The notes beneath the pieces are model-generated. The model had not been told where the DNA came from and made no database searches. It was given only the letters and a program-made list of their open reading frames with translations. DNA of 64,000 nucleotides from Nodosilinea sp. FACHB-141 (GTDB taxonomy: Bacteria > Cyanobacteriota > Cyanobacteriia > Phormidesmidales > Phormidesmidaceae): assembly GCF_014696135.1 (NCBI RefSeq), contig NZ_JACJPP010000020.1:1-64000 (forward strand), given 5' to 3'. The position numbers were made by a program, and so were the translations under genes. Position 1 is the first letter of the stretch; every line of letters begins with the position of its first letter. This document shows, in pieces, positions 17,930 through 21,624 of the stretch.

Positions 17930-18103
17930 AGGGAGAGCGGGGAAGTAGAATGCCGCTATTGTAGGCGGGAGAATTGAGCAGTGGCTGCTTCGCAGACAAG
18001 TTTGCGGTAAACACAGGTCAAACGGTGAGCACTATCTCAGTGCAAAACGAAATATCCTAAGCTGACCTACCGCAGAGCCGTACTTTGGACCTGCAATGCC
18101 AAA

Positions 18104-18292
18104 CTGCTGTGCCGCATTGGCGATCTGAGGGCACAGATCACTAAACTGCTGTGCCAGATCGGTGATCTGCTATGCCACATTAACGATCTGCTGTGCCACA
18201 TTAACGATCTGAGGGTGCAGATCACTAAACTGCTGTGCCAGATCGGTGATCTGCTATGCCGCATTGACGATCTGAGGATGCAGATTGCTTCG
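18104..18292 (+). repeat. 21-bp tandem repeat, nine units, 84-bp higher order
   Basis: Nine head-to-tail 21-bp units such as CTGCTGTGCCAGATCGGTGAT. Units 3 and 7 are identical, and units 1-4 match 5-8, giving an 84-bp higher-order repeat. Read on the plus strand every unit encodes one heptad (LLCQIGD, LRAQITK, LLCHIND), a coiled-coil pattern, and the frame stays open to a TAG at about 18345, but no start codon precedes it. It may be the remnant of a coiled-coil gene. The minus-strand frame looks non-coding. Confidence 0.85.
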
Positions 18293-18419
18293 CAACGCTG
18301 CGCGAATATAAAGCGCTGTGCCACTTTGCTTAATTATGGTGTTTAGAGGCCGGGTGCCTTGGCTTATAGCTCAATTTGGGCCAAAGCTAGCGCGGTCCCG
18401 GCCTCGTTGATCAGTGGAG

Positions 18420-18698: not shown

Positions 18699-19585
18699 CG
18701 GTTCTGTTTCCTTTGCGTATGGTTGCAAGAAACAGAACGCGAAAACCCTAGCCGCCCGCAGCTTGAGGTGCAAACTGGGGGGCTAGGGTACCATGAGCCT
18801 AGCCTCGCAATCTGCGTTAGAGATTTGCGGGGTTAGCTGTCGGTTGGTGCTGGTACCACCTTCCGGCAGCGCTAAAGTTTCCGAGTTCTGTGTGGTCACC
18901 GCTCTGCTGAACGGCTTAACGCAAAAAATAATGGTACAAAAGCTCCCCGTCAACCGTATAGCAGCAGGAACGTTTTAGATCGGCGCGGTTTATACCCTAC
19001 CTCTAGGGCGGGCGTCAAAATGTAACGTCATGAGCCTAAGCGAACGCACCTAGCAAAATGGAAGATATACAGATTACTCGCTGCCTATCTATCTACCCGA
19101 TAACGACAATCAAGCTGCAAGTAATCCGCCTATCTACTCTGTAAAGGGAATTAGGCAGATTAAAGCGATCCAATAACTTGTTAGCCTCTTGGGTTATTGC
19201 GAAGGTCGGTTCTTGCAACTTATCTGCTAGCACTCATAGTTAACAATACTCCGGACAAAAATTTGCCCTCCTATTGCCGTAAGCCAGAGCCTACGTTGCT
19301 CGAATTGTTTAAATCAAGGTCAGCCTGCGAGCTAACTTTGATTCAAGTAGCCAATCGCTGGAGTGATTGCCCTATAAGCCTTATAGCTTCGTTGCTAAAA
19401 CTGTCCGGACTGTTGAGTTAAGTTACTTAAAGGTTATTGACGAGACAATGGTTGAGGCTGTTTAGGGAGCATTCTGTTAAATAAAGTTGAGTTTGCCTGG
19501 AAAGCCTCTGCCTCACAAGGAAAATTAGGTAGAAAAGAGGAATAGAGTCAAAATTTTTGATAAAAAGGAACTTCTCTTGATAAGA
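18699..19585. other. Gene-poor intergenic region
   Basis: About 0.9 kb with no supported gene. A possible 74-residue frame near 19197-19421 starts at TTG, lacks a ribosome binding site and has no motif. Base composition becomes AT-richer toward the DnaJ-like islet. Confidence 0.5.
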
Positions 19586-19852
19586 ATGGCTACATCAGTA
19601 TCAAACCATTGATTCTGCTGCTCTCGCTGGAGCCACTATTGCAGCTTCTTTGACCATTTTCTCAGTTCCCGGACCTTTTTCCCGTTAAACGGTGCTGTCG
19701 GGCTTATACTACTCACTCTTCTACTTTCATATGAGCTGAAACGGTATCGGAAGGGTTGGCAGAACGTAGCTTTTGGAATGGTTTGTGCTCTATGTGCCCT
19801 ACTGATAGTAGGTTTTGTGACTTCGGTATTTCCTGTCTGCGTTGCTATTTGA
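19586..19852 (+). pseudogene. Frameshifted small membrane protein gene
   Basis: Read through two compensating shifts, a coherent small membrane protein appears: MATSVSNH in the first frame, then IDSAALAGATIAASLTIFSV and PGPFS after a +1 shift at about 19608, then LNGAVGLILLTLLLSYELKR after a -1 shift at about 19680, ending in FVTSVFPVCVAI and TGA. Three hydrophobic segments result. The second half uses the same frame as the start, so one indel of each sign would restore about 88 residues. It directly precedes the 40-residue gene. A real pseudogene or sequencing indels are both possible. Confidence 0.4.
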
Positions 19853-19855
19853 GGA

Positions 19856-19978
19856 ATGGTTTCAGCTCCACGTTGTGAAGTCATAAAAATCGTCCACCAC
19901 ATTAGGGACAGAAGTTGGCGATCGTTATTGAGTTGTGCTTTAGTGATTCTAGGGTTACTAATCAGGGATTTAGAATGA
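19856..19978 (+). CDS. 40-residue membrane peptide, coupled to the DnaJ-like gene
   Basis: Starts at ATG 3 bp after the stop of the frameshifted membrane gene and ends with a TGA that overlaps the next ATG as ATGA. The peptide begins MVSAPRCEVIKIVHHIRD and ends in a hydrophobic helix (LLSCALVILGLLI). The stop/start overlap and the short spacing are typical of translational coupling, which is the main evidence that it is translated. No family recognised. Confidence 0.45.
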   Translation: MVSAPRCEVIKIVHHIRDRSWRSLLSCALVILGLLIRDLE

Positions 19979-21252
19979 TTGCTAGACGAGGCGAGGATTT
20001 ACGATTTGATCTAACACTAAACTTTCGCAAAGCAGTTTTGGGTGGAGAAGAAGTTATCCGCATCTGCCACTTAGAAAACTGTCAAAGTTGTGGTGGAGAG
20101 AGAGTACAGAAACGAGGACTGGGAGGTTGGCTTCAAGGTAGACCAGCCCTTACCTGTAGAAGCTGTAACGGCAATGGGCTTATCACAGTCACAAAAAATC
20201 TAACTATTACAATCCCTCCGGGGGTTGAAGAGGGAACTCGTCTAAGGGTCGCTGGAGAAGGAGACGCAGAGCCAGGTGGAGCAAGCGGCGATTTATATGT
20301 GTATTTGTCAGTAGACCAAGATCCAGAATTTAAGCGAGATGGCATTAATCTGCTGTCAGAAATCACGATTAGTGAAGAGGCGTCAGCCTCAGGATGTCAG
20401 GTAAAAGTTAGGACAATTGACGGTACTGTCGAAACATTGAATATTCCAGCAATTGGCAATCGTGTTGCTGATTTAAGGTTGCAAAATAGAGGAGTGCCAG
20501 TCCTCGGTAATCCTAAACAGCGAGGAGATCACTTAGTGAGCATCAAAATTAAACCGAGTATCAAATCTCGCCCGTCACCTTTTGCTGTAAAAGAAGCAAC
20601 AGAAAACCCAATAGACTACGATGCTCACTACAAAAGATTGCTTTTTGTAGATCAATCTTTTGAGGAACTCATAACCCAATACAACTCAAAGGATAGTTTG
20701 TTGGTTGAGCCTTTCAATCATCTGCATGATGGAAACTTAGAGGCAGCAAAGAAGAGTTTAAGGCAATTGCTGGATAGCCCCATTGCTGAAATTCGCCATA
20801 AACTTTGGACATGGAAAGCATTGCGTCAATTGGGAGAGACTCCTCCCCACAGCATTGCAGATGACGTTCATGGTGTTGTATTTGAAATTCCGGTAGATGG
20901 TTGGGTAGACACTCTAGCGGCTTATTCAGATGGCAGAGTCCGTTACTTAAATGGAAAGCTTGGTGTGAATGGATTAATCATGTTTGAAGATACAGAACAT
21001 CCGCACATTAAACCGCTGGTGATGCGGGTGATTGACTTAGCTAAATCATTGGTTGGAAAAACACCTGTTATTGACCAGCACAACGAGGAAAGCCCAACTA
21101 TTGAGCCCAGAGTTAGTGTTCTAACACATAAAGGTCTTTACATTTTTGATAGAAGCCACTCTAACAGGGGCGTAATTGAGCCTGTCCTTTCTACTGGTAC
21201 GCAATTATTTCTTACACTCCTAGAGATACAAAACCAGAGTAAGCAGCAATGA
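19975..21252 (+). CDS. DnaJ-like protein without J domain, fused to a novel C-terminal domain
   Basis: A 425-residue protein from ATG 19975 (AGGGA 7 bases upstream). It begins directly with the DnaJ substrate-binding part: GEDLRFDLTLNFRKAVLGGE, then only two zinc motifs, CQSCGGER and CRSCNGNG, where DnaJ has four. Motifs 1 and 4 of DnaJ form zinc site I, so one site may survive while site II is lost. The two beta-sandwich domains follow (PPGVEEGTRLRVAGEGD; QRGDHLVSIKIKPS) to about residue 200. Residues 215-425 form an unfamiliar alpha/beta domain (VHGVVFEIPVDGWVDTLAAY, DGRVRYLNGK). No J domain or HPD motif occurs here or upstream, so it should not stimulate DnaK by itself. Codon use is AT-richer than the neighbours. 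Confidence 0.85.
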   Translation: MIARRGEDLRFDLTLNFRKAVLGGEEVIRICHLENCQSCGGERVQKRGLGGWLQGRPALTCRSCNGNGLITVTKNLTITIPPGVEEGTRLRVAGEGDAEPGGASGDLYVYLSVDQDPEFKRDGINLLSEITISEEASASGCQVKVRTIDGTVETLNIPAIGNRVADLRLQNRGVPVLGNPKQRGDHLVSIKIKPSIKSRPSPFAVKEATENPIDYDAHYKRLLFVDQSFEELITQYNSKDSLLVEPFNHLHDGNLEAAKKSLRQLLDSPIAEIRHKLWTWKALRQLGETPPHSIADDVHGVVFEIPVDGWVDTLAAYSDGRVRYLNGKLGVNGLIMFEDTEHPHIKPLVMRVIDLAKSLVGKTPVIDQHNEESPTIEPRVSVLTHKGLYIFDRSHSNRGVIEPVLSTGTQLFLTLLEIQNQSKQQ

Positions 21253-21394
21253 CATTATCCATTTGAAATTCGGTACATCTAGGGACTGTGGTATGCGACG
21301 TGATGTTTATGTTGTCAATGATGCCGGAAACTGGAGTGTAGTTGCGGCTGAAGCCGTATACCAAGTTATTTAAGTGCGATCGCCGATCTTGTAG

Positions 21395-21452
21395 GGTGCG
21401 TTCCCCACGACAATTCCCAATTATTTCGCCCATAAATTCCTGGGAACGCACC
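21395..21452. repeat. Intergenic inverted repeat GGTGCGTTCCC
   Basis: GGTGCGTTCCC at 21395-21405 and its exact complement at 21442-21452 flank 36 nt. It lies between the DnaJ-like islet and the ABC transporter gene, resembles mobile-element-like intergenic repeats of cyanobacteria, and may mark one edge of the islet. Confidence 0.6.
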
Positions 21453-21624
21453 AGAATTTTGGACTCTAAGCAAGCGATCGCAGTCTAACAACGCCCATGC
21501 ACACCGACCGCTAAGAGTTGATCCGTCATGATGCAGAGTTTGTCTGCAACGGGTGATGGGCACCGCTAGAAGAAAATTTTGCTCTAAGTCTAGAACTTTA
21601 GTTCCAGGGTTTTTAGAAGACGTC

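Follow-up and report, generated by a model that had tools for sequence, protein, structure and literature searches.

A DnaJ-type client clamp without a J domain in a putative integron gene cassette of Nodosilinea sp. FACHB-141

This paper describes a gene of the cyanobacterium Nodosilinea sp. FACHB-141 that encodes an intact 425-residue DnaJ-type protein without a J domain, together with the DNA that carries it on contig NZ_JACJPP010000020.1 (assembly GCF_014696135.1), of which the first 64,000 nucleotides were analysed (the window). Judging from sequence, positions 19181-21565 would constitute one gene cassette left behind in a chromosomal integron whose integrase has been lost, and the protein is best read as a mobile, DnaK-independent client-holding adaptor, an explanation which, taken as a whole, we consider reasonably probable. 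The point missed by an initial annotation of this region is that the set of genes is one integron gene cassette, located where congeners carry unrelated cargo. Other genomes are denoted by handles (G383 and so on) where they need to be told apart.

Results

Anatomy and intactness of the J-less protein

The protein and its parts are located as follows.

19975..21252, plus strand: J-less DnaJ-type protein, 425 residues, intact
20002..20553, plus strand: DnaJ_C client clamp, residues 10-193 (Pfam PF01556, E 6.7e-32, cut-off passed)
20080..20097, plus strand: zinc motif 1, CQSCGG, residues 36-41
20155..20178, plus strand: zinc motif 4, CRSCNGNG, residues 61-68
20581..21249, plus strand: C-terminal domain of about 220 residues, relative of a stand-alone protein of G456

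The open frame comprises 448 codons without stops, of which only 23 lie upstream of the ATG at 19975. This ATG is the likely start, because a relative in G383 begins at the same place with an ATG of its own (MVARRGEDLRF); a TTG at 19915 was rejected in its favour. The initial annotation had described a DnaJ substrate-binding core without a J domain, and this description is borne out by the PF01556 match and by a search of all six frames of the 64 kb, which gave no credible match to a J domain with its HPD motif (best tblastn E 0.84) and recovered, as positive control, the genome's own dnaJ, which encodes a canonical DnaJ. The glycine/phenylalanine-rich (G/F) region is also missing. Alignment with the genome's own DnaJ and with Escherichia coli DnaJ confirmed the annotated half zinc finger, motifs 1 and 4 being kept and motifs 2 and 3 absent, and the retained pair is the one that forms zinc site 1. 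The four CxxCxGxG motifs and two zinc sites of a class A protein are thus not present, the Pfam family DnaJ_CXXCXGXG stays below its cut-off, and the NCBIfam DnaJ models match far below theirs. Identity to the genome's own DnaJ amounts to 49% over residues 61-201, and the similarity to DnaJ stops near residue 193-201, so that the DnaJ profile is not covered to its end. PADLOC gave no match for the protein, an Rfam scan returned nothing, and a scan for promoters and terminators performed no better than on shuffled sequences.

By its sequence the protein does not look like a decayed or mis-assembled dnaJ, the two outcomes that the initial annotation had named as fatal to its view, since the window contains no J fragment and an intact relative from another family, that of G383, has the same J-less start and the same zinc reduction. 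An assembly join or a lost J exon was rejected because no J fragment was found in the window and the G383 protein starts alike.

A putative integron cassette with attI-like and attC boundaries

The elements that delimit the cassette are the following.

19180..19186, plus strand: attI-like insertion point, GTTAGCC, with recombination expected between G19180 and T19181
19181..21565, plus strand: putative integron gene cassette, 2385 bp, guanine-plus-cytosine (GC) content 0.437, proposed from its attI-like and attC boundaries, congener cargo and composition
21395-21405/21442-21452, no strand assigned: perfect 11-bp inverted repeat between the clamp gene and attC
21483..21571, minus strand: attC recombination site (bottom strand folded; 57.2 bits, E 3.2e-14)

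The cassette is placed at 19181-21565 on the basis of its attI-like left junction and its right-hand attC. Positions 19176-19186 read ACTTGTTAGCC, and similarity to G012 (locus L139) and G009 (locus L140) ends there; in G017, G008 and G020 the junction that precedes the divergence of the cargo reads AAGTTGTTAG. By sequence, the left junction is that of a cassette inserted at attI. On the right, a covariance model built from four congeners alone recovered the window's attC in the 64 kb, the next best match scoring 13.9 bits. The site displays the R''/R' and L''/L' pairing and the extrahelical bases of an attC, and its R' box is one base off the GTTAG core common to five congeners. Folded alone, the hairpin has a z-score of -1.99, 9 of 200 shuffles folding as well, and the sites of G020, G008, G004 and G017 range from -2.4 to -5.8. 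A common fold of five attC sites, with the window's site included and that of G012 left out, comprises 24 pairs, of which 10 vary on both sides, and the unpaired bases lie on one arm. Moreover, the GC content of 0.437 compares with 0.597 and 0.591 in the flanks, in agreement with the AT-richness noted earlier. The inverted repeat that the initial annotation saw at the right is probably the 11-bp pair, beyond which lies the attC hairpin.

A second attC between the upstream membrane open reading frame (ORF) and the clamp gene was rejected, as the best local scores were 9.3 and 8.4 bits. Outside the cassette, a weak attC-like match at 18897-18970 (13.9 bits; E 0.0079 locally and 0.17 for the window) spans the point where similarity to the integrase-bearing congeners ends and is perhaps a worn recombination site. 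Further left of the integron, positions 18067-18324 contain short repeats and an ORF with WHSR/WHSS units; here G020 and G008 give secondary alignments and the alignment of G017 breaks.

Unrelated cargo at the same site in congeners

The window was compared with nine congener regions that surround the right-hand ABC transporter gene. Similarity between the window and G020, G008 and G017 extends to 18959 and resumes at 21530-21562, and G012 matches the window from 18491 up to 19187 and then from 21537; G004, whose contig ends, provides the right flank only and matches from 21485. The cargo at the site differs between these five genomes.

G020: astacin-like protease
G008: DUF6714 protein
G017: lectin-like repeat protein
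G012 (L139:5612-7882, corresponding to window 19181-21565): AAA ATPase and DUF4435 pair, AriA/AriB, PARIS-like
G004: unnamed 222-residue ORF

PADLOC identified the G012 pair as AriB (E 2.1e-39) and AriA (E 1.7e-28) and assigned no family to the cargo of G020, G008 and G017, the three others scanned. All five cargos end in an attC-like sequence just before the shared flank, and the attC model scores these sites at 42.2-91.1 bits, four of them being part of the model and the fifth, that of G012, lying outside it (42.2 bits). In G009 and G011 the ABC gene adjoins a Trk-like gene with no cargo between them; G009 has its left-hand sequence, and an attC scoring 39.4 bits, at a distance of some kilobases. 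The Trk-like gene of G019 is not located between the two flanks, and G014 matches the ABC side only.

An integron integrase (TIGR02249) over the curated cut-off was found in 12 of the 25 genomes of the genus and in none of 14 controls (four below the cut-off). At this locus, G017 and G008 carry integrase genes over the cut-off, both interrupted, and G020 a short remnant; the window contains none, and the sole integrase match of its genome at E 1e-20 is a 72-residue fragment (G000:C9:14949-15161).

The attC model matches 24 of the 25 genus genomes, with up to 68 sites in one, counts that cover genomes of the genus only and in which weak matches may be due to chance. Many of these attC-like sites are far apart and others form short arrays, as dispersed cassettes would. 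The window's genome has 16 matches at E up to 0.1, four of which, among the matches listed, have E <1e-9.

The C-terminal domain

The initial annotation had called the C-terminal domain unfamiliar, and indeed, up to an E-value of 1, none of Pfam, NCBIfam and PADLOC matches its roughly 220 residues; PHROG matches (E 0.16 and 0.32) and a PDB match (E 0.19) are noise. The sets searched, which overlap, comprised 96 relatives, 388 genomes of the class and two phylum-level sets of 292 and 386 genomes, and the one solid relative outside the window was a stand-alone 210-residue protein of G456 (E 2.7e-15, 32% identity), which belongs to no named family and matches TPR_14 under the cut-off (E 0.0052). 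The 388-genome class search also gave weak matches (E 0.002-0.09) in ten other genomes. The family of the stand-alone protein (GLDxLAAYxDGxxRYxN) is presumably wider in other phyla. No match to the domain was found in phages (E 0.01) or plasmids (E 10), nor in viral contigs with three queries, and the 25 viral loci retrieved with two DNA patterns included no relative. In a genome-contig scan the single match was an ordinary DnaJ with a J domain, from a metagenome-assembled genome of Lachnospiraceae, and 199 genomes of the corresponding phylum gave four matches (E 0.03-0.1).

The broken membrane ORF upstream of the clamp gene

Upstream of the clamp gene the cassette contains two further features.

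19586..19849, plus strand: membrane-protein gene remnant with stops and an apparent frameshift, including a hydrophobic 79-codon stretch at 19613-19849
19856..19978, plus strand: 40-codon ORF in the frame of the membrane ORF, with one stop between

The initial annotation correctly recognized a damaged membrane gene here, as well as the overlap of the 40-codon ORF with the clamp gene, the TGA at 19976-19978 overlapping the ATG at 19975 as ATGA. Its separate membrane micropeptide was rejected: the 40-residue peptide shares the frame of the broken membrane ORF with one stop (at 19850) between them, and is for this reason probably the tail of a single interrupted ORF and not a gene of its own. In the 121 codons of 19613-19975 this stop is the only one, where simulations that keep the dinucleotide composition of the region predict 7.4 (probability of one stop or none: 0.0037), though the complementary strand also has a frame with one stop in 120 codons. 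When the 79- and 40-residue pieces were searched against the retrieved loci, including the regions of three J-less relatives, they returned only the window's own copies and two 16-residue matches (E 0.73), none of which names the membrane gene. The proposed tie of the clamp to membrane peptides is not supported by these results.

J-less relatives and the number of origins

Clamp residues 1-202 have a match in 143 of 145 genomes of the class. Near-full-core matches outside the window were obtained in G383 (60% identity) and G079 (52%), and G390 matches over residues 4-117; the remaining genomes match mostly from residue 60 on, like canonical DnaJ, in which the alignment is broken by the zinc finger. 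A profile of three J-less cores (A2), searched against 232 genomes, gave its three seeds and G159 at least 248 bits, the rest reaching at most 195.3 bits among the matches listed; as the seeds are three of the four top matches, only G159 is an independent find.

The three fused relatives (G383, G079 and G159) share with the window protein the core and the zinc reduction, in which motifs 1 and 4 are kept and motifs 2 and 3 lost, and the regions fetched for them contain neither a J domain nor an attC. The G383 protein is intact (541 residues) and carries tetratricopeptide repeats (TPRs) behind a clamp whose core is 60% identical. In G079 (L080:4064-6585) a caspase domain (PF00656, E 5.8e-24) precedes the clamp, and the fusion gene lies between a GUN4 gene and a Pepco gene. 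The G159 protein has, by eye, coil-like repeats before the clamp, and Pfam names the clamp only; the gene neighbours in G383 and G159 look ordinary by eye. Besides these, G390 carries immediately next to its dnaJ a truncated copy (L081:4137-4568) that lacks the J domain as well as zinc motifs 2 and 3; this copy is possibly a step in the origin of such clamps and may be a pseudogene or relic. The J-less clamp profile found nothing in viral contigs, and the plasmids with a clamp match comprised 60 records, the best 40 of which have at most 36% identity and are named dnaJ where annotated.

In a tree of 60 rows the window protein groups with those of G383 and G079 (support 96/97), whereas the cores of G159 and G390 are each placed with DnaJ proteins from their respective families, in the case of G390 together with the DnaJ of the same genome. 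On the starred branches, the five J-less cores require three changes. With the zinc-finger columns removed, the trio keeps a support of 91/92, and a single origin of the four fused proteins is not rejected (p-AU 0.44). The joint loss of the J domain and zinc motifs 2 and 3 thus had at least two origins, and three at the tree's face value.

Discussion

The reading of the cassette as a mobile carrier of a DnaK-independent client-holding adaptor may be put as follows. A DnaJ-derived clamp has been stripped of the parts that couple DnaJ to DnaK (J domain, G/F region, zinc motifs 2 and 3), and the client-binding beta-sandwich domains and zinc site 1 remain. Such a clamp may bind non-native or specific client proteins, which, the J domain and zinc site 2 being gone, would not be handed to DnaK, and the attached C-terminal domain may decide their fate; in the relatives the clamp would likewise act as a client-recognition adaptor module, joined to other outputs (TPRs, a caspase, coil-like repeats). 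The DnaK-independent holding role proposed earlier is plausible because these coupling parts are lost and the clamp and zinc site 1 are kept.

Several observations weigh against this reading. The fusion of the clamp with this C-terminal domain was seen once only, the search for it in other genomes that the initial annotation had suggested giving no second case in those searched. No close orthologue of the protein was found, so that selection on it is not measurable, and single-sequence structure models (mean pLDDT 35 and 39) are too poor for a fold search. The attC of G012 forms no hairpin when folded (z +0.88, with 163 of 200 shuffles folding as well). With its R' box altered and the integrase lost, the cassette may no longer be mobile and may be in slow decay, as the broken membrane ORF suggests. 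The clamp could also meet DnaK through a separate J protein of the cell. Moreover, zinc site 1 is dispensable in Salmonella DnaJ for hydrogen peroxide resistance and for DksA binding (PMC8262869).

Three other explanations were weighed. The cassette could belong to a cellular conflict (anti-phage or suicide) system, in which the clamp recognizes a foreign or misfolded protein, the C-terminal domain is effector or adaptor and the broken membrane gene a former partner. Its basis is a single caspase fusion together with the PARIS-like pair that one congener has at the site: the G079 clamp sits on a caspase beside GUN4 and Pepco genes, GUN4 and caspases belong to cyanobacterial conflict systems (PMC7159879), and AriA/AriB-like genes occupy the same integron site in G012. 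Neither the window protein nor the cargo of G020, G008 and G017 has a PADLOC family, and the neighbours in G383 and G159 appear ordinary by eye; we regard this explanation as rather unlikely. It is quite improbable that the gene is a relic in decay, derived from a dnaJ fragment that an integron took up and that selection no longer maintains; the broken membrane ORF, the missing integrase, the altered R' box and the truncated G390 copy, itself maybe a relic, would fit this, but the frame is open over 448 codons, the clamp and its cysteines are conserved, the intact 541-residue relative shares start and reduction at 60% core identity, and the C-terminal domain has an independent stand-alone relative. 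A similarly low probability is given to a regulator of DnaK that competes with DnaJ for clients or forms mixed dimers with it. The core does resemble cyanobacterial DnaJ and the genome does encode a canonical one, but nothing shows competition, and mixed dimers are not expected because the similarity ends near residue 193-201, where DnaJ has its C-terminal dimerization domain (PMC8215388).

Naturally reduced clamps of this kind, with zinc site 1 but neither a J domain nor zinc motifs 2 and 3, lend themselves to an old question, namely which part of DnaJ acts independently of DnaK, and the caspase fusion of G079 suggests that effectors can be targeted by means of a chaperone clamp. The locus, moreover, is a chromosomal integron in a cyanobacterial genus, one site of which holds chaperone-like, lectin-like, protease-like and defence-like cargo. 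A wider and speculative proposal, to which we give little credence, is that DnaJ has been reduced more than once in cyanobacteria to a clamp with zinc site 1, which would serve conflict and stress systems as an exchangeable module for recognizing clients, with caspases, TPRs or unfamiliar domains as outputs and integrons spreading the units between strains; such a clamp would sense non-native or foreign proteins and trigger an effector independently of Hsp70.

Comparison with known systems

Among the open-licence papers listed, none was seen to deal with a cyanobacterial DnaJ clamp that lacks the J domain or with an integron cassette of DnaJ type. Cyanobacterial integrons are already known (PMC2426708), and a covariance model of cyanobacterial attC sites has been used before (PMC8352920). 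Conflict systems of cyanobacteria with caspases and GUN4 are likewise known (PMC7159879); there DnaJ is named once, as a domain fused in an FNIII-repeat protein of HSP70 systems, mainly of actinobacteria and firmicutes. DnaJ is not named in PMC8195603, and dnaJ is only a typing gene in PMC10609294.

With class A J-domain proteins, the bacterial DnaJ, the window protein shares the beta-sandwich domains that bind clients, the first of which contains inserted cysteine motifs; it differs in lacking the J domain, the G/F region, zinc motifs 2 and 3 and the C-terminal end of DnaJ, and in carrying another C-terminal domain. Linke et al. are said to have assigned, in 2003, DnaK-independent holding to zinc site 1 and hand-over to DnaK to site 2. 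In Salmonella DnaJ the zinc-site-1 mutant is altered at C147/C150/C200/C203, which correspond to motifs 1 and 4, and the oxidoreductase activity is placed in zinc site 2 and the C-terminal domain (PMC8262869), for which reason this activity would not be expected in the window protein. For the main DnaJ of Synechocystis, the J and G/F domains suffice for basic function and the rest matters under stress (PMC7609799). The plastid J-like protein Orange (PMC9407819) and the J-domain-deficient ZnJ2 (PMC8262869) are alike in having DnaJ parts without a J domain; Orange keeps the zinc finger and misses the C-terminal domain, whereas the window protein keeps the C-terminal clamp and loses half of the zinc finger.

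Among cyanobacterial conflict loci with caspase, GUN4 and Pepco genes, that of G079 has a J-less clamp on its caspase, and the window's locus differs in showing none of these genes, as judged by eye from the ORF translations. PARIS (AriA/AriB) is represented by the PARIS-like pair at the corresponding position in G012, and the window gene belongs to a different protein family. Finally, the locus resembles chromosomal integrons in its attI-like site, in an attC with paired boxes and unpaired bases on one arm, in its variable cargo and in the integrase of congeners, and it differs from complete ones in that the integrase is lost, the cassette is single and the R' box is altered.
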